From: Nocardiopsis alkaliphila YIM 80379
GTDB taxonomy: Bacteria > Actinomycetota > Actinomycetes > Streptosporangiales > Streptosporangiaceae
Direction of reading: 5' to 3'
Length of the DNA: 43,036 nucleotides
NCBI RefSeq assembly: GCF_000341005.1
Contig: NZ_ANBD01000116.1
Span: 1-43,036, forward strand
Positions 3,805 to 32,438 of this stretch are shown here, one piece after another (positions within the stretch are counted from its first letter, which is position 1; every line of letters begins with the position of its first letter). The translations under genes were made by a program, and so were the position numbers. Under the pieces are notes generated by a model. That model was not told where the DNA came from, searched no databases, and saw nothing but the letters and a program-made list of their open reading frames with translations.

Positions 3805-3869
3805 GCCATGCACTGCCATAGCCTGACTGAGATTAATGATGCCGGTCACCCCATGCCACCGTCGGATAC

Positions 3870-4396: not shown

Positions 4397-4438
4397 CCTA
4401 CCTTTCCAATTCCCAGAGGTGCGCACTTATGTGGGGAC

Positions 4439-5353: not shown

Positions 5354-5724
5354 TTACCTCCGCGCCGCCACCTTGAATCAGGACAGGTGCGCCCAAATAT
5401 ATCGAAGAGCTATGTCAATTCTTGAAGCGCCTCTCACTTGTGCTCGAACGCCTCCCTCGTCGCCTCCGCGAGACCGCGCTTTCCAGAGGGTACGACGGCG
5501 TGACCAGGAAGAAAGTTGTGAGCACGGCAGGCGGGCCGGAAGCACCGTGAGGTCCTACGAGCCCGCAATGCGTCCACACCCCCTGACAGGCGTGAAGTGG
5601 CGACGCTTGGTCTGGCGACAGGGTGGAGCGAGTGCCACGGCGAACCCCACCGCTGGTATGTTCACCTCTGGCCTCGGTGAGCTCCGGGGCGCCCCTGCCC
5701 AGCGCCCGCGACCGAGGAAGAGAC
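5354..5724. other. Divergent promoter region of channel and thymidine kinase genes
   Basis: No coding frame is convincing. For the rightward kinase gene, TG-G-TATGTT at 5654-5662 resembles an extended -10 element about 60 bp before the start; no good -35 is present. Nothing comparable was recognised for the channel gene. Confidence 0.35.
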
Positions 5725-8243: not shown

Positions 8244-8247
8244 CGTG

Positions 8248-15474: not shown

Positions 15475-17859
15475 ATGAGTTCCAGCGCACGGTTCCCAGG
15501 TAGTGCGGCGGGAACCTCGCATGAGCAGCTGCCCGGTGCGCTCTCGGCGAGCGGCCGCCCCTCATCGGACACGGATCAGACGACCCCTGACCCTTGGAGC
15601 CGCCCGCAGGGGAACGTGAGCACCGAGTCGTTCGACGCTTTGTTCCCCGAATTGAAGGAACGTACGCAAAAGGCCGCTGGAGGCGCGGCTTCCCAGGACC
15701 AACGAACCGAGAGCGATCCGTCCGCGGACAACACCGAAGAACCACGTGCCGAAAAGGAGAAGTCGCGCCGGCTCTCCGGCACCTTCGACGATCATCCCCA
15801 CCTGCTCGCGATCAAACCCAAGGAACGCTACGTCTTCCGTAGCGACTACTTCCAGGTCGATGATCGCTACGCGTGCGTCCTCGGTTTCTTCCACGATGAC
15901 GGGGCACGCGACGACTTCGCCGCGTTCTGGGGCATCAACCGTATCCCCACCGGGATGCCGGAGAACGTCACCGTGGTGGTGTTCGAACAGGTCCGCCGCA
16001 TGGGTGAGAAGTGGATCGAGGAAAAGATCAAGACGGTCGAGAAACTGGATCGTCTCGAAGAGGGCGAGCAAGCCCAAGCGGGCACCATGACCTCTCGTCG
16101 CAAGGCCGCGAAGGTCAGCGACGACATGGAGATCGTCGCGGGCGAACTCCAAGACGGCGCCAGCTACCTGCACGTGCACAACCGCCTGTTGGTCCGGGCC
16201 CCCAGCCTGAAGGTCTTGGACGAAGCCGTCGAGCGAATCTCTCGGCTCTACATCGATCGGTTCGGTACCCTCACCGTCGCCGCCTATCCCGGCGAGCAGC
16301 GCCAGGAACTGACCAACCTCTTCGGCAAGAACGAGCGCAAGCGCGGTAAGGGTTTCCACTTCACCAGCGTGGAGTTCGCCGGTTCCCACTCCCTGGTCAC
16401 CAACGGTCTCAACGACCCGGCGGGGGAATACGTCGGTTCCATGATCGGTGACGTCAACAACTCCGCGGTGCTCTTCGACGTCAACGGTTACGAGCATCAC
16501 GTGGTCGTGGCCGACAACAGCGTCAACCCGGTACTGAACCGGGCGCACGTGCCCGACATGTGGGGGTCGAAGATCTCCCAGGCGGCCCTGTTGGCCAATG
16601 CCCGCACCGTGCACATCATCTTGGACGGTGCTCGCATGGACGAACTGGGCCCGCGCCTGGACTCGCTCACCGCCCGGCTGGACATGAACTCGGGCGACAT
16701 CAACATGTTCGAGATGTTCGGCGACCCCGAAGAGGAACTCGGAATCTTCCCCGCCCACTTGGAGAAGGTCGTCCTCATGGCCGAACAGGCCTATGAGACC
16801 ACCGAATCGGACCGTTCCATCATCCGTGGTTCCCTCAAGGAGACGCTCACCCAGTTCTACATCGACAAGGGCATGTGGGTTCGCAACGCCAAGCACAATC
16901 GGGACCGGTTGCGCGTGGTGGGCATCCCGCACACCCAGGTACCGCGCCTCCAGGACATCGTCACCTACTTCGACACCCGGTACCGAGCACTGGCCAACTC
17001 CACCGCCCGCGACGACGAGGCACTGCACGCCTACAACATCCTGCGTCTGGTCTTCAAGGACCTGCTCGACAACAACGGCGACCTGTTCAACACCCACACC
17101 AACGATGAGGTCGACGGGGTGGCCGACGCCCGACGAGTGCTCTACGACTTCTCGCGGCTGCTCAAGCGTGGCAAGGGGGTGGCGATGGCCCAGCTCGTCA
17201 ACGTCATCGGGTTCGCCGTCGACAACCTCGGGCTGGGTGACACGGTGATCATCCATGGCAGCGAGAACATCGACGACCGCATCAAGGAATACCTCACCGA
17301 ACAGTTCACCCACCTGTTCCTGCGCGGCGGCCGCGTCGCCTATCTGTACAACGACGTCGACAAGATGCTCGCCGACTCGACCTTCAACCGCTTCGACGCA
17401 GCGGACTGGACCGTACTGGGGCCGATGCGTGACGCGACCGTCACCGAGTACCAACGCCAAATGCACCAGGACATCCCGCCCGACCTGGAACGCCTGGTGA
17501 CCACACGTGGCGAGAACCTGGCCTACCTGCGTCGCGGCCACACCAACGTCGTCTTCCACATGGACCTGCCGCTGGGCGTCAACCCGGCCCGCGCCGAACG
17601 GCGAGCCCGAATCCTCGAGGCGGTGCAGCGTGAACAGGGTGATCGGGCCAGGCCCGAACAGTCCTCTGCGGTGGTGGCCGCCCTGGGTGAACAGGCCGAG
17701 GAAAGGGCTCAGCGCGTGGCCAGGGAAGGTGCCCAGGCACGGTTGCGCGCTGAGCGCATGAAGTCGGAAAGAAAGCCGGAACGACGCTCGAACCAGGGAA
17801 GACGGGTTCAGCCCTCGGGCCCATCGAACGAGGACGACCGCAGGAGGCGGGGGCTTTAG
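15475..17859 (+). CDS. VirB4-like T4SS protein with degenerate nucleotide-binding motifs
   Basis: The 794-residue protein has the VirB4/TrbE arrangement: a disordered N-terminus (1-95), an N-terminal domain (about 100-330), a RecA-like-sized region (about 335-720) and a basic tail. At the Walker A position, after GYEHHVVVADN, it reads VPDMWGSKISQAALLAN (about 359-375) rather than GxxxxGK[ST]. The hydrophobic strand before the expected Walker B reads RVAYLYNDVDKML (620-632), with Asp followed by Val instead of Glu. Later structural features (arginine-rich DRLRVVGIPHTQV, FSRLLKRGKGVAMAQLVNV) remain. VirB4 normally powers assembly and substrate transfer; here ATP hydrolysis looks unlikely. The frame is intact over 2.4 kb, so this is not a decayed gene. 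It lies between VirB3-like and VirB6-like genes; its TAG abuts the next ATG. Confidence 0.7.
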   Translation: MSSSARFPGSAAGTSHEQLPGALSASGRPSSDTDQTTPDPWSRPQGNVSTESFDALFPELKERTQKAAGGAASQDQRTESDPSADNTEEPRAEKEKSRRLSGTFDDHPHLLAIKPKERYVFRSDYFQVDDRYACVLGFFHDDGARDDFAAFWGINRIPTGMPENVTVVVFEQVRRMGEKWIEEKIKTVEKLDRLEEGEQAQAGTMTSRRKAAKVSDDMEIVAGELQDGASYLHVHNRLLVRAPSLKVLDEAVERISRLYIDRFGTLTVAAYPGEQRQELTNLFGKNERKRGKGFHFTSVEFAGSHSLVTNGLNDPAGEYVGSMIGDVNNSAVLFDVNGYEHHVVVADNSVNPVLNRAHVPDMWGSKISQAALLANARTVHIILDGARMDELGPRLDSLTARLDMNSGDINMFEMFGDPEEELGIFPAHLEKVVLMAEQAYETTESDRSIIRGSLKETLTQFYIDKGMWVRNAKHNRDRLRVVGIPHTQVPRLQDIVTYFDTRYRALANSTARDDEALHAYNILRLVFKDLLDNNGDLFNTHTNDEVDGVADARRVLYDFSRLLKRGKGVAMAQLVNVIGFAVDNLGLGDTVIIHGSENIDDRIKEYLTEQFTHLFLRGGRVAYLYNDVDKMLADSTFNRFDAADWTVLGPMRDATVTEYQRQMHQDIPPDLERLVTTRGENLAYLRRGHTNVVFHMDLPLGVNPARAERRARILEAVQREQGDRARPEQSSAVVAALGEQAEERAQRVAREGAQARLRAERMKSERKPERRSNQGRRVQPSGPSNEDDRRRRGL

Positions 17860-20800
17860 ATGGGTGAGAGAAAGAAGGGAGAGCGTACGAGGAACAGGGG
17901 TCTCTTTCCCGCGTTGCGAGGCCTGCTCCCTGGCAAGGACGGAACCGGTCCCTGGGCACGTCTGGGCGTGTTGGTACTGCTACTGGTCTTCCCACTGGCC
18001 CTGCTGTTGGGGGGCGCCGGTACCGTCCTCGCCGACGATGAGAACTCCCAAAGCCAAGATCCCGAAATCGACGGTCTGTCGTTCTACAGGCTCTCCTCAT
18101 CGATGACGGCGCTGTTCTCCACCGCCCAGGAGCCAGGTAGCGGTGTCAGTTTCGGGGGAGAGGGGGAGGAAGGGGAACAGACCAGCTGGGCGGAAGTGCT
18201 CCAGAGCCCGGCCAGCGCCGGGTCCATGCTGGGATACCCGGACGAGAACTACAACCCGATCATGGGATGGCTCGACTCCAGGATCGCCCAATCCTCCAAC
18301 AGCGTTGGTTACAACTCGTTGGTCGGAAGCACGGACTCGGGGGTACCCGGTGAGAAGGGTGCACGCGACTATGCGTTGTACGGTGCCACACTCAATGGCC
18401 TGGGTTTGGACAGCACCAGTACCGGTCTCTCCCTCGGATTCTTCAGTTGGCTCGCGGGCGGGCTCATCCTCGTCCTGTTCGCGATCGCGGCCGCCGTCGA
18501 CGCTCTGTGGTCGATCATCCTCAAGACCCTGATCTGGATCAACCCTTTCAGGTTGATCTACGATGCGGTCAATTCTCTCTCCGGTAGCACTTACGCCGAT
18601 GGAATGACCGCCGGAGAGGGAGCTCCGAATTTACCGGGACCATTGGATACGGTGGTCAACTGGATCAATATCGTTTATTCACACTTGATCCAGGCTTCAT
18701 GGAATTATGTAATCCCGGTGTTCGTCGGCGTTTTTTTCATCAGCATCCTCATGTTCAAGGGCATGAATAAAGGATCTGCGCTGAAAAAGCTTCTCCTTCG
18801 CATGTTCTTCATCGTCCTTGGCGTTCCACTCCTGGGCTCCATGTACAGCGGAGCACTCAACGTCATGAGTGATGCCGCGGACCAAGAGAACTCGGCCGCC
18901 GCGCAGGTGGTGCTCTCCACCTACGTCGACTTCGAGCGCTGGGCCATGGATCAGCGTCTGCGTGTACCCGCATCCGATGATGCGGTCATCGAGTGGAACA
19001 TGGAACAGAACGCTCCTTCGGGGGCGTCCCAGTCGGGCGTGACCGATCTGGCTTTACTGATCAATTACCAGACCATGGGTTTGCCAAGCAGTTCCGTGCA
19101 ACTCACCGGTGAGGGTTCATGGGACCAGAGCATGCCGGCGGAAGGTGACTCCGGATTCGAGGAAAGTCACTACTCCGCGGTCATGGACATCCTGCGCCGC
19201 TACATGGACGGGTCCCACGTCAACGCCTCTTCGTTCGAGTCCGAGGCCAAGGCGACTCTGACCAGTAACACCAGCGGCGAAGCACGCTCTTGGTTCAAGG
19301 AGTACATCGGAGATCCAGAAAGTATTCAAAAAAAAGAGGAGCCTCAAAAGAACCCACTGCTCGCGGTGCAGAACGGAACAGGTCTGACTTCCACCCCGAA
19401 TGGGGAAGACAAAATCCGCTTCAGCACCTCGGGGGGTACCCAGGATTGCGGTCTCGAACTTTCCGAAGACGACGATGATGCCAGCCCCAAAGCGTGCAAC
19501 CTCGCGCCTTTGGCTATGTACAACTACCTCAACACGGACTTCGGATCGACCTCCTACACCGCCTATTCCTCGGGAAAGACCAGCAGTGAAGCGACCCGGT
19601 CCATCCACAACTCGGTGAACCTGGTGGGCACCGGCGTGATGAGCTTCGTGTACTGGCTCAACGCCGTCGTGCTCTTGGGCGCTTTCGTCTTCATCGGCGT
19701 CGGTTACGCCGTCGCGTTGGTGATCGCCAACCTGCGACGCACCTTCCAGTTGATCACCGCGGTCCCCTTCGCGGTGCTCGGCGTGGTCTCGGGTATCGCC
19801 AAGGTCATCGTCTACACGGTCGCGATGCTCATGGAAATCCTCATCACGATGTTCATGTACAAGTTGGTACAGAGCTTCTTGCTGGGCATCCCCGGGTTCA
19901 TCACCGCCCCGTTCGCCGAGGCCATCGGCGACAACGATGGCCGGTCGACCCTCCTGTCGTTCCTGGCCGCGTCCGGTTTCCTCCACATGGTGATCACCCT
20001 GTTGTCGATCACCGTGGTCATCGTCTTCACGGTCATGGCGATGCGGCTGCGCAAGACCCTGGTCAAGGCCGTGGAGGACACCACCACCAAACTGGTCGAG
20101 AAGTTCACCGACTCCAAGGTCCCGCCCGCTGGCGGTAACAACGTGAAGCCGGGCAAGCCCGGCGGGGGTGGCAAGGGTGTCGAGTCGGCTTCGGGTAACC
20201 GAACGATGGGCGGCGCCACCGGTCTCAAGAACCCCCGTGGCACGAGCGCGGGTGGCACCGTCGCAGGTGGCGGCCTCGATGGGACGTCCTCCTCATCCGC
20301 TGAGAGCGATGAGACCAGGGTGAGCGGGGACGTGGACACCGACGGCAAGTTGGAGGGCCCCGGCCAGATGTTCGGCGAGGATCGATCGGGCTCTGGCCTG
20401 GAACCCAGTACCCAGGAACGGGACGCCGCGGGAGAGACCGCACTCGGGCGACGGGTCGAGAGTGATGGCCTGTCCGATGATCCATTGGAGACCATGGCCG
20501 GTTCCGTCCGGCAGTCCGCAGCGGACTACGCCGAGTCCGACAAGCACAGACTCGGTGCGGCGACGGACGGTGTCAAGGCCACCGGCCACGCCGCGATCGC
20601 CGTTGGTCGCGGCGTGGCCGGAGACGGGGTCGGGGCGGCCGAGTCGGCGGGCAAGGCCGCTGAAAAGGGCGGGTCGGCCATGGCGGGGAACGCACGAGCC
20701 AACCAGGCGTCGGAACGGGCCGGAAAGTCCGCACTCGACAATCCGGCCCCCAGCGCCCGGCATCAACGGCAGATCCAGAAGGGCCAACAGGTCCAAGAGG

Positions 20801-21012
20801 TGGGAAGTACCGTCTCCAAGGTCGCCGGCGTAGCCGGTGGCACCGGTGGCGGTGGCAGCGCCCCGAAGGGCCCACAGGCCCAGCCGATACCGAAGAAATC
20901 TCCCAGTGGAAGCAAGGGTTCGGAGTCCGCGGCCAACGCGGCCAGGCGGGCCCGCTCCCAAAGGCAGGGACCCAAACCACCCAGTCAGCCCAAGCCCCCC
21001 AAGCGAAAGTGA
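17860..21012 (+). CDS. Large VirB6-like polytopic membrane protein
   Basis: The 1050 residues include an N-terminal signal/anchor helix (about 32-58), helices around 190-225, 280-300 and 310-330, a very large extracellular loop (about 335-590) and a second membrane block (about 590-730: AVVLLGAFVFIGVGYAVALVI, AVPFAVLGVVSGIAKVIVYTV, ITLLSITVVIVFTVMAMRL). The last 320 residues are a Gly/Ser/Ala-rich cytoplasmic tail ending in a basic stretch (PSQPKPPKRK). VirB6-type proteins line the inner-membrane channel; large forms with exposed loops occur in Gram-positive systems. ATG 17860 follows the VirB4 stop directly, with GGAGGCGGGGG upstream, so translation is coupled. The codons at 18590-18830 and 19280-19400 are less GC-rich than the rest, matching variable surface loops. 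Confidence 0.75.
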   Translation: MGERKKGERTRNRGLFPALRGLLPGKDGTGPWARLGVLVLLLVFPLALLLGGAGTVLADDENSQSQDPEIDGLSFYRLSSSMTALFSTAQEPGSGVSFGGEGEEGEQTSWAEVLQSPASAGSMLGYPDENYNPIMGWLDSRIAQSSNSVGYNSLVGSTDSGVPGEKGARDYALYGATLNGLGLDSTSTGLSLGFFSWLAGGLILVLFAIAAAVDALWSIILKTLIWINPFRLIYDAVNSLSGSTYADGMTAGEGAPNLPGPLDTVVNWINIVYSHLIQASWNYVIPVFVGVFFISILMFKGMNKGSALKKLLLRMFFIVLGVPLLGSMYSGALNVMSDAADQENSAAAQVVLSTYVDFERWAMDQRLRVPASDDAVIEWNMEQNAPSGASQSGVTDLALLINYQTMGLPSSSVQLTGEGSWDQSMPAEGDSGFEESHYSAVMDILRRYMDGSHVNASSFESEAKATLTSNTSGEARSWFKEYIGDPESIQKKEEPQKNPLLAVQNGTGLTSTPNGEDKIRFSTSGGTQDCGLELSEDDDDASPKACNLAPLAMYNYLNTDFGSTSYTAYSSGKTSSEATRSIHNSVNLVGTGVMSFVYWLNAVVLLGAFVFIGVGYAVALVIANLRRTFQLITAVPFAVLGVVSGIAKVIVYTVAMLMEILITMFMYKLVQSFLLGIPGFITAPFAEAIGDNDGRSTLLSFLAASGFLHMVITLLSITVVIVFTVMAMRLRKTLVKAVEDTTTKLVEKFTDSKVPPAGGNNVKPGKPGGGGKGVESASGNRTMGGATGLKNPRGTSAGGTVAGGGLDGTSSSSAESDETRVSGDVDTDGKLEGPGQMFGEDRSGSGLEPSTQERDAAGETALGRRVESDGLSDDPLETMAGSVRQSAADYAESDKHRLGAATDGVKATGHAAIAVGRGVAGDGVGAAESAGKAAEKGGSAMAGNARANQASERAGKSALDNPAPSARHQRQIQKGQQVQEVGSTVSKVAGVAGGTGGGGSAPKGPQAQPIPKKSPSGSKGSESAANAARRARSQRQGPKPPSQPKPPKRK

Positions 21013-21155
21013 TTTCAACCACCGACCACAAAACCCGTGAGCACCGATATGGGGAACCTCAAGGGAACCATTCGGCTTCACCCTGAGGACCCGAAGAGGA
21101 CTCCATTCCGCCAGTCTCACCCACCCTCATCCGGATTGGAAGCGTGACAAAAAAG

Positions 21156-21185
21156 TTGCTCCCAACAAAGCCTGACAGTTACAAT
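21156..21185 (+). promoter_or_regulatory. Candidate promoter of the pilin gene
   Basis: TTGCTC (21156-21161) and TACAAT (21180-21185) are separated by 18 nt, a fair match to the vegetative sigma factor consensus, in the 306-bp gap before the VirB2-like gene. The transcript would have an untranslated leader of about 125 nt. The remainder of the gap holds no gene. Confidence 0.5.
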
Positions 21186-21318
21186 AAGCCCGGAAAGTCC
21201 TAATTAGAACGCGCACACCCTCGACGTTGCTCTCCTCAAACCAATCCCCTTGAGATCTCCAACGTCACGCGTACATTCATCGGACCAAACCGGGACCAGA
21301 GAACAAGGACCATAGAAA

Positions 21319-21642
21319 ATGAACATGAGCAACCTTCCCTCCGCGTCATGGGACCTCCTCTCATTTCTTGAGAGCGCCACCAACTACGTGCGTGTGGCAG
21401 GCGGATCCCTCCTCGCCCTGATGGGCACCGCCGGTGTCGTCTGGGGTGGCGTTCTCCTCATCAAGAAACTCATGGCCTCCCAGCAGGATCAGACCAGTTG
21501 GGCCAAGATCATCGGTCTGATCCTTATCGGCGGTGCCCTCATGGTCGGTGGTTTCAGTCTTATTTCCACCATTGCCGCAGGTGGACGTACCACCATTGAG
21601 GACCTGGGCGGAGGCATGATCCTCCTAGGGCTCACCGACTAA
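21319..21642 (+). CDS. VirB2-like pilin / small two-helix membrane protein
   Basis: The 107-residue product has two hydrophobic helices (about 24-48, AGGSLLALMGTAGVVWGGVLL, and 64-88, IIGLILIGGALMVGGFSLI) joined by a short charged loop (KKLMASQQDQTSWAK). This is the topology of VirB2/TrbC-type pilins and their Gram-positive equivalents, which are the most abundant subunit of the extracellular conduit. The N-terminal 20 residues are polar without a classic long signal peptide. The gene stands apart within the operon: its own candidate promoter lies upstream and strong inverted repeats follow it, in keeping with a need for high expression. Similar small two-helix proteins without pilin function exist, so the call is by size, topology and context. 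Confidence 0.62.
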   Translation: MNMSNLPSASWDLLSFLESATNYVRVAGGSLLALMGTAGVVWGGVLLIKKLMASQQDQTSWAKIIGLILIGGALMVGGFSLISTIAAGGRTTIEDLGGGMILLGLTD

Positions 21643-21702
21643 GGCAAGGCACCATCGCACCATCGTCCTGAAACGTGGCAGCGCAAAAGTAGGCACCAAT
21701 GA

Positions 21703-21755
21703 GGGTCGACGGCGTAAGCAATCGTCGGCCCTTTACGCTTCCCACGGGTCGACCC
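21703..21755 (+). promoter_or_regulatory. Nested inverted repeats after the pilin gene
   Basis: GGGTCGAC (21703-21710) pairs with GTCGACCC (21748-21755), and inside it GCGTAA (21712-21717) pairs with TTACGC (21733-21738). The structure lies between the pilin stop and the next ribosome site. It may act as a partial terminator or a 3' stabiliser allowing more pilin mRNA than downstream mRNA. Confidence 0.4.
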
Positions 21756-21786
21756 ATGCTTGAGTGAGGCGGCAGGAGAACGTCAC

Positions 21787-23088: not shown

Positions 23089-23153
23089 CCCCGATCGATG
23101 GTGCGGATTATCCAGGGGAATTCAGCGAAGCAAAGGGAAGAAGAGAGGGCACC

Positions 23154-25067
23154 ATGTCGGAAATCGCTGGTGGGGCCGGGGGGACGCGGCCCTCGATCCC
23201 AGGGTCGAGTGGTAACCCCTTAGGCCCTGGGGCGGGAGACAAACCCTTGGGCCCCGGCTCGGGAAATAATCCCTTGGGTGGATCCGGGGCGGCCGGACAG
23301 GACGTCGCGAAGGGGAGACCCGACACCGGTGACGGCTCCAAGATCGGCCCGGGCACAGGTGCCGAGGAGGGGTCGGAGGCAGGAGGGGGCGCAGGACGGG
23401 CCACGCCCCCCGATCCGGCGAAGGGCCCGGCCGGTGCTTCGGAAGGCGCGAGCGATGAGGGCACCCCCTCGTTAGGTGCGGGCGGCACTTCCGAGGCCGC
23501 CAAGGACGGCCCCGAGGGGAACATGGGCAGCGTCGCCAAGGGGGCTGGAGCGGCCGTGGCCGTCCCCGCCGTCGGGGTCGCCGGCCAGCTCATGATCTTC
23601 ATGATGTTCCTCAAGTGGCTCAAGAGCCTGATGGCCCAAATAGCGGCCATGCTGTTGAACTGGTTGAACGCCCTGTGGAATCTCCTCATCGCCTTTGTGA
23701 AGCCCTTGGTCGGTATCGCGCTGGCCGTGGGTGGAGCGATCGCCGCGCTCGCGGGCGGAGCCGTCAGTGTGGCGGTCGGGGCCGTGGTCTCGGGCACCGC
23801 CGTACTCATGGCCTTGGTCTCCGTCGCCGTCGTCGTGGCGAACGCCGTCACCCAGGGCAACAGTGCCGCCCAGCATGACGCCCTTCCCCCGGACTGTCGG
23901 CCCATGACCGAGGCGACCGTGCGCGAGATCGACGACAACACCCGGTCCGCGAACAACAGTAAGGCCATGGACGAGATGGCCGAAAAGCTGTATTCAATCC
24001 TTTCTGCATGGGGAATGCAAGACGAGAATATCGCCGGTGTTCTAGGAAACTTCGAAGCCGAATCGAACATCGATCCGACAACCGTTGAGACGATCTACGA
24101 CGAGGCTTATGAGATCGGCCCGCGAACGAAGGCGGCGGAGGAGAACGGCTTCAAGATCGAACTCATCGACGCCACATACGCTGAGGAATGGCCCGCCATC
24201 GAGTTGGCGGGAATCGGGCTGGGGCAGTGGACCAACGGCCGCAACAAGATGCTCACCGACTACGCCGAAAAGACCGGTGGAAAATGGTCCGATCTCGAAA
24301 CCCAGCTCAGTTTCATGATCTCTGACGATGATCCTACCCGGGTTCGCTTCGTGAAGGACCTCATCGAGGAGCCCTCCGGGTCGATTTCGGAGTCCACCGA
24401 AGACTGGATGGTCGAATGGGAAGGCTTGTCGCTGAGTGTTCCCGCCAACCCACCACGACTGGCCGAACGCCAAGAGCTCGCCAACAGGTGGTTCGCGAAG
24501 ATGGACGCCTGGGAGGCGGACGAGGAACTGGCCGACTCCATCCTGGAGCAAGCCGAGGCCACTCTGGGTCAAGCCAACCAGAACCGCCGTTCCGCGGTGA
24601 TTCAGGATTGCCGCACCGCCAACATCGGTAGTGGAAGCGTGGTCCAGGCCGGTGAGCAGATCCCCTGTGACTCCCTAGGGGCGATGCACCCGCACGCCTG
24701 TGCCATGCATGAACACCTCCAAGAGGAGTTCGGTGGATTCTTCCTCTCGGCCGGGGGCCAGCGCAACGAGCCGGGCAGTAACCACCACAACGGCCAGGCC
24801 ATCGACTACATGATGGCCGACTTGGGTGAAGTTCCCAGCCAGGAGATGTACGACTCGGCGATCATCGTCATCAACCACCTCATCGCCAACTCCGAAGAAC
24901 TCAATATCAGCGGAATCCTGTGGGACGAACGTAAGTGGGCGGCCGGTAACGACCCGGTCGGGGAGTGGGGCGATGAGATAACCCGGGACGCGGGCGGTCG
25001 TGGGAGCAACACACAGAACCACATCGACCACATCCACGTGAGTGTGGGTCCCGATCCCTTCATGTGA
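23154..25067 (+). CDS. Membrane-anchored wall hydrolase: tail-lysozyme domain plus VanY/LAS-type peptidase domain
   Basis: Domains of the 637-residue protein, in order: a Gly/Pro-rich N-terminus (1-130) with three NPLG-like repeats; a hydrophobic block of several helices (about 132-236); a phage tail-tip lysozyme-like domain (about 265-435) with probable catalytic Glu in LGNFEAESNIDP and the typical GLGQWTNGRNKMLTDYA; a linker; and a C-terminal domain (about 505-637) with HHNGQAIDYM and NHIDHIHVSVG, the zinc-ligand pattern (HxxGxAxD, HxH) of LAS/VanY-type peptidases. The protein would cleave glycan strands and peptide stems around the secretion channel. It is the second bifunctional hydrolase of the locus and uses different enzyme families from the one at 7074-8243. 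GAGAGGG precedes ATG 23154. Confidence 0.8.
   Translation: MSEIAGGAGGTRPSIPGSSGNPLGPGAGDKPLGPGSGNNPLGGSGAAGQDVAKGRPDTGDGSKIGPGTGAEEGSEAGGGAGRATPPDPAKGPAGASEGASDEGTPSLGAGGTSEAAKDGPEGNMGSVAKGAGAAVAVPAVGVAGQLMIFMMFLKWLKSLMAQIAAMLLNWLNALWNLLIAFVKPLVGIALAVGGAIAALAGGAVSVAVGAVVSGTAVLMALVSVAVVVANAVTQGNSAAQHDALPPDCRPMTEATVREIDDNTRSANNSKAMDEMAEKLYSILSAWGMQDENIAGVLGNFEAESNIDPTTVETIYDEAYEIGPRTKAAEENGFKIELIDATYAEEWPAIELAGIGLGQWTNGRNKMLTDYAEKTGGKWSDLETQLSFMISDDDPTRVRFVKDLIEEPSGSISESTEDWMVEWEGLSLSVPANPPRLAERQELANRWFAKMDAWEADEELADSILEQAEATLGQANQNRRSAVIQDCRTANIGSGSVVQAGEQIPCDSLGAMHPHACAMHEHLQEEFGGFFLSAGGQRNEPGSNHHNGQAIDYMMADLGEVPSQEMYDSAIIVINHLIANSEELNISGILWDERKWAAGNDPVGEWGDEITRDAGGRGSNTQNHIDHIHVSVGPDPFM
23211..23290 (+). 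repeat. Short tandem repeat encoding NPLG-type units
   Basis: Three diverged copies, each about 28 bp, encode NPLGPGAG, KPLGPGSG and NPLGGSG near the N-terminus of the wall hydrolase. They form a flexible cytoplasmic region that could vary in length by slippage. Confidence 0.5.
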
Positions 25068-25131
25068 TCAACGAAGAGGGGCCTCAAAGAGAAAAGAACT
25101 TCGGATAGCGATACCGCGGGGAGAACGAAGG

Positions 25132-26067
25132 GTGACCGAGAAAAAACCCTGGCACCGGATGAGTCGCGAGGAGGTGATGGGACGCCTCGACGACTACCAG
25201 GCCAAGCGGAGGGCCGACCGTAGAAGGTTGACCGGCGACGACGTGCAAGAGATGTTGCGCGAGCGCCGGGCCGAGCGCCGAAGACTCAAGAGGGAACGCA
25301 AGGCACAACGTGCCAACGGGCCCAAGGCCCGCCGCGATGTGGGCCGAACGATGCGGTCGAGCCTGGGCTGGGCGCTGTTGGCCGGAGTGGTCGGCATCGG
25401 GTCATTGGCGGTCTCGAGCACCGACACCGCTCAGGAGCGGTTCGAGGACAACGAGCGGACCATACTCCTGCTCACGGGAGAGATCCGCGCTTTGGAGGAG
25501 AACACGTGGGACGAGGCGGAGGCCTCGGGCCTCGAAGAGCGGCTGGAGCAGGCCTTGGAGCAGGCCCGTGAGAAGGGCGAGCACATCGCCCGGGCACAGA
25601 ACACCTACCAGGAACTCCTCGTCGACACCAACGGCACGGAACCACCCGAGGGCGGAGAGGCGAGCGAAGCGTTCGCGGCCGTGGGCGAACATCGCGAAGA
25701 ACTCGTCGACCTCTTCGATGATTCGGCTCGGATCATCAAGGACGAGGAGTCCTACCACCCCGGCGCGGACAGGTTCTACGGGCCCGGTGAGATCGACGTG
25801 CTCTCACCCTGGTACATCCGCTACAGCGATGAGAACCGCGGTACCTACGCCAAGGCCTCGCTGAACTCCTGGGAACTGGTGGCGGTGTCCCTGAGCGATT
25901 CGCCCGACTCCATCCACGTGTCCTGGCTCAACCAGGAAGCCTCCACCGGTGACCTGTTGGCCTGGGCAAGGGCCACCTACGACATCCACACCGAGGTGTT
26001 CCACAGCCTCTACGTCGGACAGACCACGATCGGGGACCGCCCCGTGGACGTTCCGGATCAGGAGTAG
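25132..26067 (+). CDS. Bitopic membrane protein A of a duplicated module
   Basis: The 311-residue protein has a very basic cytoplasmic N-terminus (1-75, repeated Arg/Lys clusters), one membrane helix (about 82-101, LGWALLAGVVGIGSLAVSS), a coiled-coil-like stretch (about 105-155), the motif GEHIARAQNTYQ, and a C-terminal domain ending in DLLAWARATYDIHTEVFHSLY and IGDRPV. The gene at 26874-27818 shares this layout and both motifs, so the two are paralogues. GTG 25132 is preferred (GGGGAG 8 nt upstream); the frame from 25042 would overlap the hydrolase gene. The downstream partner starts 5 nt after the stop. Probably a scaffold in the membrane complex; no family is recognised. Confidence 0.68.
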   Translation: MTEKKPWHRMSREEVMGRLDDYQAKRRADRRRLTGDDVQEMLRERRAERRRLKRERKAQRANGPKARRDVGRTMRSSLGWALLAGVVGIGSLAVSSTDTAQERFEDNERTILLLTGEIRALEENTWDEAEASGLEERLEQALEQAREKGEHIARAQNTYQELLVDTNGTEPPEGGEASEAFAAVGEHREELVDLFDDSARIIKDEESYHPGADRFYGPGEIDVLSPWYIRYSDENRGTYAKASLNSWELVAVSLSDSPDSIHVSWLNQEASTGDLLAWARATYDIHTEVFHSLYVGQTTIGDRPVDVPDQE

Positions 26068-26072
26068 GTTCG

Positions 26073-26723
26073 ATGGGTTTCTTCCAGCGCAACGCCTTCC
26101 CCTTGGTCGCGGCCGTGATCCTCGTCGTGGCGGGTGGCTCCTTCCTCAGCACACGAAGTTCCCAAGAGGCCTCCCTGCAAGAGCAGGAGCAGCACATATC
26201 CGAGCTGGAGGAACGCAAGGCCGAACTGGAGGCCGAACACGACGAGCGAGAGCGTTCGATCAACGACCAGGTGTCGGGGACCGACTCCGCACGTTTGGAG
26301 GCCGACGAAAACCTCATCCACCAGCTGCTGAACACCGCGTTGACCTGGGAGAGCCATGCCGAGTACGAGAGTGCGCGTACCACCATGACGAACGTCTACG
26401 GCCTTCCCGAGGACTCCACCTTCATGACGGCGTTCCTACCCGAGGCACCGTTGAACGTGGACGGTGAGGGCACCGAGTATCCGCTCATCGACCTGCTGGG
26501 CCTCGACTCACGGGTGAATGATTTCCACACCGAGGTGATATCGGTCCAGGGCACCGAGTACGCCTATTTGGTGTTGGTCGATGTATGGACCACCTCCGAC
26601 GACGGTCAGGCCAGTGCCCGGAACACGGCGACGGTCATGTTGACCACCGATGGTGCCGGTGGAGTATCCGAGGTCGAAGGATACGCCGCCACCTCCCGGG
26701 TGCGTTCCTCCGGTCCCGACTGA
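26073..26723 (+). CDS. Bitopic membrane protein B of a duplicated module
   Basis: This 216-residue protein has a short N-terminus, one membrane helix (about 9-27), a coiled coil (about 30-65, QEQEQHISELEERKAELEAE) and an external alpha+beta domain (about 75-210) with TEVISVQGTEYAYLVLVDVW. The protein at 27815-28483 shares the order of elements and the F-x-x-V-x-x-x-x-V-G-x-Y-x-Y-x-x-x-V-D-V motif, so these are paralogues. The external domain could be an NTF2-like VirB8-type fold, but this is only suggested by size and topology. It follows protein A with a 5-nt gap and precedes an AT-rich junction. Confidence 0.65.
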   Translation: MGFFQRNAFPLVAAVILVVAGGSFLSTRSSQEASLQEQEQHISELEERKAELEAEHDERERSINDQVSGTDSARLEADENLIHQLLNTALTWESHAEYESARTTMTNVYGLPEDSTFMTAFLPEAPLNVDGEGTEYPLIDLLGLDSRVNDFHTEVISVQGTEYAYLVLVDVWTTSDDGQASARNTATVMLTTDGAGGVSEVEGYAATSRVRSSGPD

Positions 26724-26873
26724 CCCGTCCCCGGTGTCCGCTGAATGTAAGCGACTTCGCACTAGGGCTTCTTCACGTCCCAGGTGTACATGATTAGTCA
26801 CTATTGTGGTTCTACAGAACTATTTTTATATATGTCAGAAATGCCTCATGGTCGCATAAGGGAGGAGGTCAAC

Positions 26874-27818
26874 GTGGCCGATGGTACGAACGAACCCTCG
26901 ACCCCGCCATCGTCTTCCGACGACCTGACCGGACGTCCGGGCGCAGCCCTTTCCACACCACAGGACGAGCCCTCCTCGGCTCGGCGTTCCCAGGGCGGAT
27001 GCGGAACCCTTCTACTGCGGATCGCGTACTGGTCGGGAACCGGCCTGGGGCTCTTGGGTGCGCTGGTGCTGATGGTCATAGCGGGTGCGATCAGTACCCA
27101 GCACCAAGCGCGGTTGGAAGAACAGGCACAGGCCGGGTTCGACGCACAGCAGGACATCACCGCCGCGCAGCAGGACTTGGAGGACCTACCCGCTCAGAAC
27201 GAGGCCAAGCGCTGGCTACATCAGGCCACCACCGTGGGCGAGAACATCGCCGAAGCACAGAACACCTACCTGGAGAACAGCGGGCCACTTCTCCTCGACG
27301 ATCTGCCCACCCGAACACCCGGGCTGGGTGAGCGCGATGAGTGCTCTTCCTACCTCGATGAGGTACCGACCGACACACGCGAGTACACCGACAAGGAGCT
27401 CACCACCTGCGCCAAGGGACTACGTGAGGAAGCGACCGATGGTCTGGAGCGGCGGCTGATCCCGCATTTCACCACGCGAGTGCTCGATACGGACGGCTTC
27501 GACGCGGTGAGCCAGTGGCACTCCCGGATACCGACCTTGGAATCGGACACCTCTTTGGCCGACCATACCTGGACCGCTCACGAAGCCCTCCTTTTCACGC
27601 AGGATCTGTCGATCCCCCTGGTCTGGACCCTGACCGACGAGACCGGGCAGATGGTCGCCTGGGTGCACGGGACCTACGATCCGCTGGTCAAGAAGTTCGA
27701 CCGGATGGTGTTCGGTGCGATCGCCGTCGGCGACACCGAAGAAAACCTCGGCGCCATCGACAGCGATGACGACGGCGAAGAGGAACGAGAGAACGAGGGC
27801 GAAGGTGACCAGGGATGA
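26874..27818 (+). CDS. Bitopic membrane protein A' (paralogue of 25132-26067)
   Basis: The 314 residues comprise a polar, Pro/Ser-rich N-terminus (1-45), a membrane helix (about 55-80, GLGLLGALVLMVIAGAI), a helical stretch with GENIAEAQNTYLE, a cysteine pair (DECSSYL, LTTCAKG) absent from the first copy, and a C-terminal domain with QMVAWVHGTYDPLVKKFDRMV and AVGDTEENL. These match GEHIARAQNTYQ and LLAWARATYDIHTEVFHSLY of the first copy in the same order. GTG 26874 is chosen because GGAGGAGG ends 5 nt before it; the frame opens at 26784 inside AT-rich sequence. The tail is acidic. ATGA overlap couples it to the next gene. Confidence 0.66.
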   Translation: MADGTNEPSTPPSSSDDLTGRPGAALSTPQDEPSSARRSQGGCGTLLLRIAYWSGTGLGLLGALVLMVIAGAISTQHQARLEEQAQAGFDAQQDITAAQQDLEDLPAQNEAKRWLHQATTVGENIAEAQNTYLENSGPLLLDDLPTRTPGLGERDECSSYLDEVPTDTREYTDKELTTCAKGLREEATDGLERRLIPHFTTRVLDTDGFDAVSQWHSRIPTLESDTSLADHTWTAHEALLFTQDLSIPLVWTLTDETGQMVAWVHGTYDPLVKKFDRMVFGAIAVGDTEENLGAIDSDDDGEEERENEGEGDQG

Positions 27819-28483
27819 GCCTGGCCGAGATCGAAGCCTACGAGCGTGAGCGCCGGCGTCGTCGCGAGAGGATCCGGCGCATCGTCTCCTGGGCTCCTCT
27901 GGGGACGGCCGTACTGATGCTGGCCGTGGGCGGGCTGTCCGTGTGGTCGGCGTCCTCGGGGCATGAAGCCGACCAGGCCGAGGTGGCGACCCTGGTGGAA
28001 GACCTCGAAAGCGAGGCGGAGGAAGCCGAAGCCGACTTCCACACCGCCTGGATCAAGTCGGTGGAGGACTCCTCGCCGACACGGGTCGAACGCGTAGCGA
28101 CCGACGGCGAGACGATGCACGCGCTGTTGCGCGAGGTCGTAGCGGCAGAGGATGACGTCTGGGATCCGCCGCCCACCACCGACGACGAGATCCTCGATCC
28201 GCTCCACGCTCTGGTCTCCGAGGGCGTCCCCGGGCTGGATACGGGTTCACGGGCCAGGTTGGGAACCTTCGATCCGGTACTCGTCGACATCGAGGTCGGT
28301 TCCTACTCCTACTTCGCCTACGTCGACGTTTTCGACACCGACGACGTCACGGAGGAGGAGGACGAAGAAGACGACCGAGAACCTGCGGTCGCGGCACTGT
28401 CGGTGTCCTGGACGACCGCGAACGAAGGTGCGATCACCCGGATCGACGCCCATTGGACCGACGGAATCCCCGAACACTCCTAA
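27815..28483 (+). CDS. Bitopic membrane protein B' (paralogue of 26073-26723)
   Basis: This 222-residue protein has an Arg-rich cytoplasmic N-terminus (YERERRRRRERIRRIV), one membrane helix (about 28-48), a helical acidic stretch (about 50-80, EVATLVEDLESEAEEAEADF) and an external domain with FDPVLVDIEVGSYSYFAYVDV, matching the same motif in protein B. An acidic insert (VTEEEDEEDDRE) interrupts the domain. Its ATG overlaps the stop of protein A', as expected for partners made in fixed ratio. Function unknown; likely part of the membrane-spanning scaffold. Confidence 0.65.
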   Translation: MSLAEIEAYERERRRRRERIRRIVSWAPLGTAVLMLAVGGLSVWSASSGHEADQAEVATLVEDLESEAEEAEADFHTAWIKSVEDSSPTRVERVATDGETMHALLREVVAAEDDVWDPPPTTDDEILDPLHALVSEGVPGLDTGSRARLGTFDPVLVDIEVGSYSYFAYVDVFDTDDVTEEEDEEDDREPAVAALSVSWTTANEGAITRIDAHWTDGIPEHS

Positions 28484-28514
28484 CACACCCACGCCCCTGC
28501 CAGGAGAACAATCC

Positions 28515-29012
28515 ATGAGTCCCGCTCCGTCGGCCCCCAAAAAGAAGACGAAACCCTCCACGACCACATCGACCAAACCCGAAAGGAAGCGACGGGCCAA
28601 GGAGAGCGCCGCACCGCGAGCCATCGCGGCCGAACAGGTCGACCAGAACGTCGCGGGACCTGCCTTGGGAGCGCGTATCCGCGCGCGTCTGGGGCCGGGT
28701 GGAGCACGTTCGTTGATGCTGGCCACGCGCATCGGTTCGATGGTCGTCTCCGGCTTGGCCGGCTATGTCGTGGCGATGTTCGCCGCGGTGACCGTGGTCC
28801 CCAACGTCTTCCTCATGGTGGCCACCGGTACCGGCATCGGCCCGGCTTCCCCCTTGGAGACACAACTGGCGCACTGGCTGGCGCCCAGCCTTTTCCTCAT
28901 AGGTTTGATCTTCGTCCTGGTGCTGGTCGTGGTGCGCTGGTTGTGGCGTGCCCAGCGCCGACTGAGTGAGAAGGTCCGGCGTGCCCTGTTGGGCGAGGAA
29001 GTCGATCGCTGA
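28515..29012 (+). CDS. Two-helix membrane protein with basic N-terminus
   Basis: The 165 residues start with a Lys/Thr/Pro-rich cytoplasmic segment (1-65, PKKKTKPSTTTSTKPERKRR), then two membrane helices (about 75-103 and 124-146) and a basic C-terminus (WRAQRRLSEKVRRALLGEE). AGGAG lies 9 nt before ATG 28515. The product is probably a small inner component of the T4SS complex. I do not recognise a family. Spacing of 31 bp from the previous gene suggests co-transcription. Confidence 0.65.
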   Translation: MSPAPSAPKKKTKPSTTTSTKPERKRRAKESAAPRAIAAEQVDQNVAGPALGARIRARLGPGGARSLMLATRIGSMVVSGLAGYVVAMFAAVTVVPNVFLMVATGTGIGPASPLETQLAHWLAPSLFLIGLIFVLVLVVVRWLWRAQRRLSEKVRRALLGEEVDR

Positions 29013-29040
29013 CCCCCGAGATCGAAGAAAGGCGATCCGC

Positions 29041-29982
29041 GTGATAATCGCACCCCTGCGGATGACCGACCCGTGGTTCCACCGCTTGGCCCGAAACGAC
29101 GAGGCCGACGCGCAGACCTTGAACGGCGTGTCCTGTGACATCGCCGTGCGTATGGAGACGGTGTCGATCCTCCACCATGACGCCGACCAGAACTACCGTC
29201 CCTACCTGCATCTACGTGGACAGCTCACCCGGATCCGACCCGACGTCGTCCTGCCCCACGGCATCACCGAACTGCGGTTTCGTTCCGGGTCGGAACCGAC
29301 CATCGACGCTTTCTACGAGTTCGACACCGATCAACTGAGCGAACTGGTCCGCAAGGGCTACTTCGGTCCCCGTTTCCGGGTGCCCGACTCCATGATCGGG
29401 ATCATGTGGGAACTGCCCGCCGAAGCCGACCTCCTCGTGATCGCACCGGAGGACGTCGACCAGCCCCCGCTGGTGTTCGTGGACGTCCGCGAGCAGAACA
29501 GTGCCGTGCTCACCGAGGAGAACAGTGGATACGCCCTCGCCGAGTACTTCCCCGACTATTCGATCGAGAATTCAGAGCAGATGGTGGCCGAAGCCCAGAC
29601 CGCGGTGCCCACACACTCGGAGCAGATTCAGGATCTGTTCGCCGACGAGGAGCTCGACGAAACCCCTCACGGCCGAGCGGGGTTCTCGCGTCGTGACGTG
29701 CCATCGGGACAGAGCGCGATGGAGCCGCTCCCCAAGGGCGCGTTCGATCGCTTGCTGGAAGAGGTGGAGGCTCGGCGTCGCGTTGAGGAGGCCGCCAAGA
29801 AACCCGGAGTGGACTACGTCCCCGATAGCCCCGAAGGGCTCCTGCGGGAAAGGATCACCCCCGCTGTGGAGCAGGCCTTGGTCGACAGGCTGGAACGTCG
29901 CACCGAACACGTCGTCGAGGTCGATCCCGACTTCGATGGCTTCCTCGACTTGGACGTCGAGGACGAGGATGGAGTCCGATGA
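29041..29982 (+). CDS. Soluble protein of unknown function, last gene of the rightward operon
   Basis: This 313-residue protein has no signal peptide or membrane segment. The first 190 residues look like a compact alpha+beta domain (MRMTDPWFHRLARNDE-like start, then LHLRGQLTRIRPDVVLP and IGIMWELPAEADLLVI). The rest is acidic and probably disordered, with a helical segment (DRLLEEVEARRRVEEAAKK) and an acidic end (DLDVEDEDGVR). GTG 29041 is chosen because AAAGG lies at suitable distance. A cytoplasmic accessory role, such as an adaptor for substrate or ATPase, would fit its position but is not shown by sequence. Confidence 0.6.
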   Translation: MIIAPLRMTDPWFHRLARNDEADAQTLNGVSCDIAVRMETVSILHHDADQNYRPYLHLRGQLTRIRPDVVLPHGITELRFRSGSEPTIDAFYEFDTDQLSELVRKGYFGPRFRVPDSMIGIMWELPAEADLLVIAPEDVDQPPLVFVDVREQNSAVLTEENSGYALAEYFPDYSIENSEQMVAEAQTAVPTHSEQIQDLFADEELDETPHGRAGFSRRDVPSGQSAMEPLPKGAFDRLLEEVEARRRVEEAAKKPGVDYVPDSPEGLLRERITPAVEQALVDRLERRTEHVVEVDPDFDGFLDLDVEDEDGVR

Positions 29983-30402
29983 GACGGGTGTGCCCACCGT
30001 GGGTCTGGCTCAGAGGAACCCGCACGGGCGTTCCGCGGCCCGGCACGCAGGGGGCGAGCGGCAAAAACGGGAGGGCGACCATCGGCCTGGCGTTTGATCC
30101 GGACTCGCACAGGACGTACCGACCTGATGGGCCCACCAAGGCCCTGGGCCCACGCGTCTCACGGAAGGAAGCGGGGCGGACGGGTCCGCGCTCGGATAGC
30201 CGGTGACCGTGCTGTGGACAGTGGGAAGGTGTGGCTTTGTGAGCCCATCGGGAAGGTGTGGGCGAAGCACACCTCATTCGCGCGGCCATCGCGAGACCCC
30301 GGAGCTTTTCTTGGTTTCCCGATCCGCGAAGAAGTGGTTTCTTCTTTACCTTTGAGGCTTGATGGATAGTCGCATTCCAGCTGCTTGGCAGGCCCACTCT
30401 CA

Positions 30403-30420
30403 ATGGCCATTTATGGCCAT
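30403..30420. promoter_or_regulatory. Double palindrome, possible operator
   Basis: Two copies of the 8-bp palindrome ATGGCCAT (30403-30410, 30413-30420) lie 2 bp apart and about 40 bp before the candidate -10 of the AAA+ gene. Such a pair would suit a dimeric regulator; none is identified in the window. Confidence 0.4.
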
Positions 30421-30460
30421 CCCAAAAAGGCTTCTACCCTGCCACCACAACATGGTGACG

Positions 30461-30469
30461 TGCTAAAAT
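30461..30469 (+). promoter_or_regulatory. Extended -10 promoter of the AAA+ / VirD4 block
   Basis: TGCTAAAAT matches the extended -10 pattern TGnTAnAAT. No strong -35 is seen, as is usual for extended -10 promoters. Transcription would start near 30475, leaving a leader of about 70 nt before the TTG start at 30547. Confidence 0.45.
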
Positions 30470-30473
30470 CTTG

Positions 30474-30518
30474 ATGATTTATGAGCAAAATATGAGTGGA
30501 ATTGAAACGCAGTCGTAA
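30474..30518 (+). CDS. Possible 14-residue leader peptide
   Basis: An ATG-to-TAA frame encodes MIYEQNMSGIETQS. Its stop codon (30516-30518) directly touches the hairpin that covers the ribosome site of the AAA+ gene, the arrangement used in translational attenuation. An in-frame ATG at 30492 would give an eight-residue version. The first ATG is so close to the expected transcript start that it would be leaderless. Short frames like this occur by chance, so the call is tentative. Confidence 0.25.
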   Translation: MIYEQNMSGIETQS

Positions 30519-30537
30519 CCTTCTTGTCCACAGAAGG
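30519..30537 (+). promoter_or_regulatory. Hairpin sequestering the ribosome site of the AAA+ gene
   Basis: CCTTCT (30519-30524) pairs with AGAAGG (30532-30537) around the 7-nt loop TGTCCAC. The right arm is the Shine-Dalgarno sequence for TTG 30547, so the hairpin should lower translation unless opened. The weak TTG start adds to the impression of tight control. Confidence 0.45.
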
Positions 30538-30546
30538 CGGTGTTAG

Positions 30547-32331
30547 TTGTTCACCAGGCCTGACGGCTCCTTCGACGACGAGCGCAGCGCTCTCTATCCG
30601 AAGTTGGCCAAGTACAGCGACCCTCTCAAATCCCCCGAGCGTGAGATCGTCGGTCGCGAATATGAGATTTCCCAGCTCATGGCTGCTATGTCTCGGCCTG
30701 AACTGTGCAACGCTCTTTTGCTGGCCCCTCCCGGATCGGGCAAGACCGCATTGGTTCAGGCAGCCATGGTGGTGGACTCCAAGCGGGTCTATCTGGAAGT
30801 GGACCTGGCTCGAATGATCTCCGGTCTGAGTACCCCCGACGAGATGGCGGCACTGCTCAAGGGCCTGTTCGACGAAGCTGAACGGTTCAGCGTCGAAGAA
30901 CAAGTGGAACTAGTGCTGTTCATCGACGAGTTCCACCAAGTAGTCCAACTCAGCTCCGCCTCCGTCGAGGCGCTCAAACCGGTGCTGGCGGCCTCTGGTT
31001 CACGTGGTATCCGGGTCATCGCGGCTACCACGTTCGACGAGTTCCATAAGTACGTAGCACCGAACCAACCGCTCATGGAACGTCTCCAACGCATCAACGT
31101 GAGTCCACCTGACCAAAGGACCACGATTGAAATCCTCAAGGGAATGGCCCGGCGTTACGAGGTGGAAGATCAGTTCTACGACGACCACCTTTTCGAACTG
31201 ATCTACGATTACACCAACCGGTACATTCCAGCTTCGACCCAGCCCCGCAAGTCGATCCTGGTACTGGACTCGATGGTGGGTTGGCATCGCTACAGCGGAC
31301 GCCCGATGGACCGCGCCCTACTGGCCGACGTCCTCATGGAATCAACCAACGTCAACGTAGCCTTCAGTGTTGACGCGGTGAAAATCAAACAACAACTCGA
31401 CAGTGCGGTGTTCTCCCAGGATTTCGCTACCAGTGTGGTCGCCAAAAGGTTGCAACTATGCGTTGCAGACCTTAACGATAAGACGAAGCCGATGTCTTCC
31501 TTTTTGCTCACCGGCTCAACTGGCACAGGAAAAACCGAGCTCACCAAACAGCTCGCTAAATTGCTGTTCGGTGACGACCAACGCCACCTTATCCGGTTTG
31601 ACATGTCCGAGTTCGCGCGCGAAGAGTCTCTGGATCTGTTCCGCTCGGAACTGACCAAGCGCGTATGGGACATGGGACATGCTGTTCTACTCTTCGATGA
31701 GATCGAAAAGGCTGCCTCAGCTATTACAAGAGTTCTTCTCCAAGTACTCGATGACGGCAGGCTTTCTGATGACAACGGCCGCCAGGTATCGTTCCTCAAC
31801 ACCTACATCGTTCTCACTACCAACGCGGGATCAGAGATTTACGAAACGATCGCCCAGTACAACGTGGACGATAGCGGGTCGGGCAAGGAATTGTTAGAAA
31901 AAATGAAGGAGATCCGCAGGTCGATCTCCACCACTCAGGGTGATAACAAGTTTCCGCCCGAACTGCTGGGACGAATCGACGCTATCGTCCCTTTCCAGCC
32001 GCTCTCACGCGAGACACAACGAAAGATCGTCAAAAACAAGCTTCGTGAGATGCGCCGCGAAATCATGGTCAAACATGGGGTTCGGGTCGAGATCGCTGAA
32101 CGGGTACTCCAATACCTTATCGACGACCACGGGGACACCGACTCCAACGCCGGAGGCGCTCGTGCGGCGATCTCGAAGATGACCGAAGAGGTCACCACTT
32201 CCCTCGCCGCCTTCATCAACGCCCACCCTTATGAACGAGTCCTACGGGTGGACGTACGCGGGACGATGCGTAGCGAGGACAAGGGGCTGCGCAAGAGTGA
32301 CTCCTATGTCGAGGTGACCGCGGCCCGGTAA
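30547..32331 (+). CDS. Clp-like double AAA+ ATPase of the T4SS locus
   Basis: The 594-residue protein has two AAA+ modules of the ClpA/B/C type. Module 1: Walker A APPGSGKT (60-67), Walker B LFIDEFHQ (124-131), sensor IRVIAATT. Module 2: Walker A GSTGTGKT (323-330), Walker B LLFDEIEK (381-388), LLQVLDDGRLSDDNGR, TNAGSE, PPELLGRIDAIVPF and the sensor-2 GGAR. It lacks the Clp N-domain and middle domain. The second-module pore segment (APPGYVGYEEGGQL in Clp proteins) is replaced by a short stretch after FDMSEFAREES, and the first-module pore loop is also not recognisable, so normal substrate threading is doubtful. The in-frame TAG before TTG 30547 forces this start. First gene of the block leading to VirD4; a candidate assembly or energising motor. 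Confidence 0.85.
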   Translation: MFTRPDGSFDDERSALYPKLAKYSDPLKSPEREIVGREYEISQLMAAMSRPELCNALLLAPPGSGKTALVQAAMVVDSKRVYLEVDLARMISGLSTPDEMAALLKGLFDEAERFSVEEQVELVLFIDEFHQVVQLSSASVEALKPVLAASGSRGIRVIAATTFDEFHKYVAPNQPLMERLQRINVSPPDQRTTIEILKGMARRYEVEDQFYDDHLFELIYDYTNRYIPASTQPRKSILVLDSMVGWHRYSGRPMDRALLADVLMESTNVNVAFSVDAVKIKQQLDSAVFSQDFATSVVAKRLQLCVADLNDKTKPMSSFLLTGSTGTGKTELTKQLAKLLFGDDQRHLIRFDMSEFAREESLDLFRSELTKRVWDMGHAVLLFDEIEKAASAITRVLLQVLDDGRLSDDNGRQVSFLNTYIVLTTNAGSEIYETIAQYNVDDSGSGKELLEKMKEIRRSISTTQGDNKFPPELLGRIDAIVPFQPLSRETQRKIVKNKLREMRREIMVKHGVRVEIAERVLQYLIDDHGDTDSNAGGARAAISKMTEEVTTSLAAFINAHPYERVLRVDVRGTMRSEDKGLRKSDSYVEVTAAR

Positions 32332-32438
32332 GGAGATCGCCGGAGGAGGCAAGGTCTCATCAGGCCGAAAGTGCCTCTACAAAGGCTGATGAAAAAGCTG
32401 GTTCGATACGTCTGGTACGGATGAGAGAGGGTGTGCCG

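Follow-up and report, generated by a model that had tools for sequence, protein, structure and literature searches.

Genes of the locus

We have analysed a stretch of 43,036 nt (hereafter the window), which is one contig of the 5.2-Mb draft genome of Nocardiopsis alkaliphila YIM 80379 (212 contigs in total). It carries a set of genes resembling those of type IV secretion systems (T4SSs), with a VirD4-type coupling protein, lysozymes, a TrbL/VirB6-like protein, a VirB4-like gene and a gene for a Clp-like double AAA+ ATPase. VirB4 counts as the ATPase that defines a T4SS. The last two genes are our main subject:

15475..17859, +: VirB4-like protein without Walker A/B, 794 amino acids, RecA-like domain at about residues 310-702
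16549..16572, +: codons 359-366 (VPDMWGSK) of the VirB4-like protein, with the Walker A-equivalent columns at 359-361
17242..17259, +: codons 590-595 (TVIIHG), Walker B strand of the VirB4-like protein, with HG replacing DE
30547..32331, +: double AAA+ (Clp/HSP100-type) ATPase, 594 amino acids, no N-domain, M-domain or pore loops, catalytic sites kept

The VirB4-like protein

The VirB4-like gene is a single open frame of 794 codons with an ATG start, and the pattern [GA]xxxxGK[ST] is absent from its product. When aligned with three intact VirB4s, those of pLS20 (GDMGSGKS), pL1277-2 (GRPRMGKS) and pBE15_1 (GNRRMGKS), their G-K-S columns fall on V359-P360-D361 of the window protein, just ahead of W363-G-S-K366, and T590-V-I-I-H594-G595 forms the Walker B strand, which reads IDE, LDE or MDE in the intact proteins. 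The protein therefore lacks both signatures of the VirB4 family, a Walker A of the form GxxxxGK[ST] and a Walker B DE. An earlier note on this DNA had described an intact 794-codon frame devoid of Walker motifs, which the open reading frame (ORF) and this alignment bear out. Its placing of WGSKIS at Walker A was right to within a few residues, the true columns being 359-361 and WGSK starting at 363. NDVD (626-629), which it had put at the Walker B position, lies instead at the end of the following strand, and we reject it as a Walker B.

The replacement residues are themselves conserved. W363, K366, Q369, H594 and G595 are invariant across the 79 rows of one alignment (A2), HG is found in all 121 VirB4-like proteins examined, and the 40 genome loci described below all keep W363, K366 and HG, with no GK[ST] in the aligned columns of the site. 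Formal matches to [GA]xxxxGK[ST] do occur, in 21 of the best 120 of 1166 actinobacterial homologues and in seven of the 40 genome loci (every one off-site), and in none of 27 staphylococcal homologues. Twenty of the 21 are one and the same segment, A[LM]L[NS]NGKT at residues 371-378, and the remaining one is in the variable N-terminal tail. We rejected this segment as a displaced Walker A, as it lies at a helix-strand turn and its K is replaced by R in 45 of the 79 A2 rows. A DE-like regular expression matched three homologues (P0085, P0104 and P0121), all of which also carry the HG motif. The earlier note had named a valid Walker pair elsewhere in the protein as what would speak against its proposal, and none was found.

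A search of the PDB with the sequence and a profile gave nothing meaningful, so that membership of the VirB4 family rests on predicted structure and on the alignment to intact relatives; a Pfam scan gave no AAA_10 match for this protein either. The protein is predicted to have the VirB4 fold, an N-domain followed by a RecA-like C-domain. Judged from the alignments, its nucleotide site is dead, and conserved as such across two phyla (Actinomycetota and Bacillota). A VirB4-like gene with 55 percent identity was also seen on contig CANQZG010000008.1, possibly misbinned, of a metagenome-assembled genome (MAG) labelled Muribaculaceae (Bacteroidota).

The Clp-like ATPase

The second gene has a TTG start and 594 codons. 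Its product keeps both Walker A/B pairs, sensor 1, the D2 arginine-finger position and sensor 2, and both Walker pairs are kept in all 15 aligned proteins. It aligns to ClpC residues 182-405 and 489-778, boundaries which indicate that the N-domain is missing and that the M region of about 80 residues has been replaced by 16. Relative to ClpC, 12 residues are missing from the D2 segment that bears GYVG there, and the protein has no D1 YRG loop. GYVG was found in none of the 121 Clp-like proteins examined and GY[VI]G in none of the 16 that are paired with a VirB4-like protein; as a positive control, all five housekeeping Clp proteins put through the same motif check show GY[VI]G and [YF]RGxFE. 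The ClpC alignment and the motif check thus uphold the earlier description of a protein with both Walker pairs and without N-domain, middle domain or GYVG pore segment. It scores far under the curated ClpA, ClpB and ClpV cut-offs (240.2 against 884.95 bits for TssH, i.e. ClpV). Nine PADLOC matches, the best stretch of each covering part of one AAA region, were not read as defence.

Some members of the family have additional features. In six Streptomyces genomes (G341, G346, G348, G350, G356 and G361) the gene is interrupted at the D2 P-loop near K329/T330, between GK and T, and PF14528 homing-endonuclease domains in long homologues (e.g., P0134 and P0138) suggest inteins at this P-loop. At four Bacillota loci (L051, L055, L056 and L053) proteins of 1064-1312 amino acids with no credible P-loop or family, apart from DUF3659 in the case of the plasmid pELF2, directly follow the Clp-like gene.

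Linkage of the two genes

Scanning four conserved peptide patterns over genome contigs gave 40 VirB4-like loci, and each of the 38 genomes that contain them was searched for the Clp-like gene. A match of this type was present in 37 of the 38 (best E 1.3e-180 or lower), six of these matches having a single break of the kind that an intein would cause and one, in Nocardiopsis sp. CNR-923, being split in two frames. Both genes were on one contig in 28 of these 37 genomes, 1.1 to 248 kb apart. Within Nocardiopsis each gene occurs in 12 of 40 genomes, the identical 12, eight of which match members of the 38-genome set, so that both counts overlap. In a class-wide sample of 296 genomes, with few candidates scored per genome, the Clp-like gene was detected in two, both Nocardiopsis with the VirB4-like gene.

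The distances among VirB4-like and among Clp-like proteins are correlated (r = 0.978) over 16 chosen pairs, taken from selected loci, four of them paired indirectly and three of those four also via the same named organism; pL1277-2 and pBE15_1 were left out of this comparison because their VirB4 is intact. Co-occurrence of the Clp-like gene with the dead VirB4 is near-obligate across Actinomycetota and Bacillota, and by these distances the two genes diverge congruently. The earlier note had asked whether loss of the VirB4 motif is conserved among homologues and accompanied by the Clp-like gene; we find HG in 40/40 loci and the partner in 37/38 genomes.

Neighbouring genes

The remaining genes of interest in the window are the following:

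7074..8312, -: NlpC/P60 + SLT cell-wall hydrolase
8950..11250, -: TrbL/VirB6-like membrane protein (25.5 bits, just below the 25.9 cut-off)
14469..15344, +: ORF preceding the VirB4-like gene, no Pfam match
17860..21012, +: large protein with many hydrophobic stretches, putatively VirB6-like from its position, no Pfam match
21319..21642, +: small hydrophobic protein, putatively VirB2/pilin-like from its size and position, weak sub-cut-off Pfam matches only
23154..25067, +: cell-wall hydrolase with Phage_lysozyme2 domain, VirB1-like (E 5.1e-31)
32421..34676, +: long charged coiled-coil-looking protein with a C-terminal hydrophobic stretch, no confident family
34834..38838, +: VirD4-type coupling protein, P-loop AITRAGKG, Walker B FMLDE (T4SS-DNA_transf, E 1.1e-21)

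Coupling-protein, lysozyme and TrbL-like genes accompany the VirB4-like gene in the window, and the protein of its upstream neighbour, which one would compare with VirB3/PrgI-like membrane proteins, has no family match; in pGKT2, pJM1A, SAP020A and pELF2 an ORF likewise lies upstream of the VirB4-like gene. The coiled-coil-looking protein sits between the Clp-like and coupling-protein genes, and similar-looking proteins are found in pZY2 and SAP020A. Among the 20 window proteins scanned, this contig only, there was no match to a T2SSE-family ATPase (the VirB11 slot), nor did the window show an intact VirB4. A P-loop scan of the window added a frame at 5596-6276 (+) with GSMNSGKS, presumably thymidine kinase-like, and three matches judged to be chance. 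At one end of the window there is a zeta-toxin gene with a small upstream ORF (204-1159), likely a toxin-antitoxin pair, adjoined by a transposase with DDE_3 and a weak IS630-type helix-turn-helix match (1167-2216, -). An Ion_trans protein of the voltage-gated ion-channel type is encoded at 4439-5353 (-, E 9e-45).

Plasmids carrying the pair

The same pair is found on pELF2, a linear vanA plasmid. We scanned pELF2 in three pieces for standard P-loops in ORFs of at least 120 amino acids, and the only ones were in the Clp-like protein and in an FtsK/SpoIIIE-type protein; by this pattern scan there is no intact VirB4 on the plasmid. Transfer of pELF2 is reported both from filter matings and in broth, pELF1 was considered to be self-transmissible, and ftsK is the sole specific transfer gene of pELF2 named in the available parts of these reports (PMC7142295, PMC6863802). 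Transfer of pGKT2, the plasmid of Gordonia sp. KTR9, to Rhodococcus jostii RHA1 is reported at second hand (PMC5640721, in the part available). The window, pGKT2 and pELF2 each encode a P-loop coupling protein or a candidate of the FtsK type.

Other plasmids show different combinations. pLS20 combines an intact VirB4 with a T2SSE-type ATPase, and the 50 kb read of its 66 kb gave no significant match to a Clp-like protein. A search with one Clp-like protein from an intact-VirB4 plasmid returned 309 plasmid records. In a tree, the Clps of two such plasmids, pL1277-2 and pBE15_1, group with housekeeping Clps (support 100), apart from the partners of dead VirB4s. Taken with pJM1A (see below), these gene contents suggest that a helper ATPase, VirB11-like or Clp-like, may be a recurrent slot.

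How the system may be energised

The reading that we favour, to which we would give about even chances, is that of a predicted conjugative T4SS in which a VirB4-fold protein has lost its Walker residues and the pore-less Clp-type ATPase supplies the ATP-driven work. The dead VirB4 would form a structural platform at the membrane, on which a Clp-like hexamer would dock, remodelling or cycling it by ATP-driven conformational change without threading any polypeptide, and so filling the place held elsewhere by VirB4 catalysis or by VirB11. DNA would still be driven by the coupling protein, VirD4-type in the window and probably FtsK-type on pELF2. It is likely that energising has passed to the Clp-like hexamer. 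The dead site across two phyla and the near-obligate, congruent Clp-like partner support the earlier proposal of a distinct T4SS subtype, with VirB4 as a platform that does not hydrolyse ATP. A little more tentatively, we would extend this to a widespread Gram-positive class (Actinomycetota and Bacillota, including pELF2) in which a pore-less HSP100 double ATPase replaced VirB4 catalysis and VirB4 became an ATP-free platform.

Several observations weigh against this reading. pL1277-2 and pBE15_1 have an intact VirB4 plus a Clp-like gene, also without GYVG, so that a Clp-like ATPase can do without a dead VirB4 and is not only a substitute. pJM1A has, besides the dead VirB4 and the Clp-like protein, a VirB11-type ATPase that could be the energiser there. 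The pattern scanned on pELF2 misses deviant P-loops (ParA, VirD4-type GKG), and an annotated AAA ATPase at 3689-4507 of that plasmid went unreported. The two genes do not share an operon in 18 of the 28 same-contig copies, where 50-250 kb lie between them, and are on different contigs in 9 of the 37 genomes. The four-pattern selection of the 38 genomes favours close relatives, and the literature searched had no mutant of either one of the pair. The earlier note had counted any locus lacking the Clp-like gene against its idea; there is one among the 38 genomes, a 2.3-Mb Kocuria MAG with housekeeping-type Clp matches only (ca. 1e-42), from whose assembly the gene may simply be missing, against 37 that have it. 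Other VirB4-type ATPases also exist in host genomes. The window's own genome has a chromosomal AAA_10 gene on another contig (C117:3213-4232, E 6.6e-70), and 7 of the 12 Nocardiopsis genomes with the element, this one not among them, give P-loop_TraG matches. It is improbable that such a host ATPase acts in trans, as an AAA_10 gene is present in 40/40 Nocardiopsis genomes regardless of the element, is distant from it where contigs are long, and cannot serve pELF2 unless enterococci have one too.

The alternative that we take most seriously, although we consider it rather unlikely, is that the Clp-like protein is a dedicated assembly or recycling chaperone (for the relaxosome, the coupling protein or the pilin), with the VirB4-like protein as no more than a scaffold and the coupling protein as the source of all the transport energy. 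Clp relatives are chaperones, the gene is also found on intact-VirB4 plasmids, and the coupling protein or FtsK-type candidates named above could drive transport; the loss of both pore loops, however, argues against classical unfoldase work, and a general chaperone need not co-diverge so closely with VirB4 while the class of coupling protein seems to change. We think it quite unlikely that a non-canonical site around W363, K366 and H594 allows the VirB4-like protein to bind or hydrolyse nucleotide after all. The invariance of this region indicates that it is under selection, but K366 is replaced in members from pELF2, pZY2, Pediococcus, L. salivarius and S. argenteus, and every degenerate member in the alignment with intact relatives shows HG or YG in the DE columns. 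Least probable of all is a decaying, non-functional transfer region, for which one could cite the dead site, the insertion sequence at 1167-2216 and the split Clp-like gene of CNR-923; the long open frames, the 1166 homologues, the conserved replacement residues and the reported transfer of related plasmids are all at odds with it.

The pair raises the questions of whether a T4SS can run without VirB4 catalysis and what an HSP100 protein without pore loops does. A large VirB4-like family across two phyla without Walker A/B differs from the statement, in the available part of a 2025 review, that the VirB4s of Gram-positive bacteria have kept both Walker motifs (PMC12857230). The pair also matters because pELF2, which has it, moves vancomycin resistance from one enterococcus to another. 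Typing tools miss dead-VirB4 systems: the 135 plasmid records that match the enterococcal form, 107 of them from Enterococcus, bear the labels non-mobilizable (114), mobilizable (18) and conjugative (3), and pELF2 too is called non-mobilizable. A survey of Actinobacteria found VirB4 using AAA_10, according to its available part (PMC3218068). The pair was not described in the titles and abstract beginnings of the open-licence literature searched, and PMC12613866 (on pHTbeta) and PMC8212935 have no bearing on it.

Comparison with known systems

The closest intact relatives are the pLS20-type VirB4s (pLS20, pL1277-2 and pBE15_1), which can be aligned with the window protein over the RecA-like domain, and two of which (pL1277-2 and pBE15_1) share with it an FYI..GMW segment; they keep GxxxxGKS and DE, both of which are missing from the window protein and its family. 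The Lactococcus pNP40 system has a PrgI-family Tra13 and a TraE ATPase, and the available part of its report mentions neither Clp nor pJM1A (PMC8194271). The one published degenerate VirB4 met in the literature searched is VirB4b of Rickettsia, which, in the part of the report available, has an altered nucleotide-binding cleft and a proposed structural role like that of the window protein, but accompanies VirB4a and VirB11 (PMC2653234), whereas no intact VirB4 came to light in the window or in the P-loop scan of pELF2.

The window Clp-like protein differs from ClpC, ClpB and ClpA in having no N-domain, M-domain or GYVG/YRG loops. ClpV (TssH) of type VI secretion is likewise an HSP100-type ATPase serving a secretion machine. 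ClpV is, however, a threading ATPase that uses pore loops, and the likeness drawn in the earlier note fits poorly, given a protein that is pore-less and far below the ClpV cut-off. Torsins with their partners LAP1/LULL1 offer another parallel, an HSP100-related ATPase that is said to have no pore loops and to work on a catalytically dead partner; they are eukaryotic and have a single AAA+ domain, and we regard them as an analogy only.

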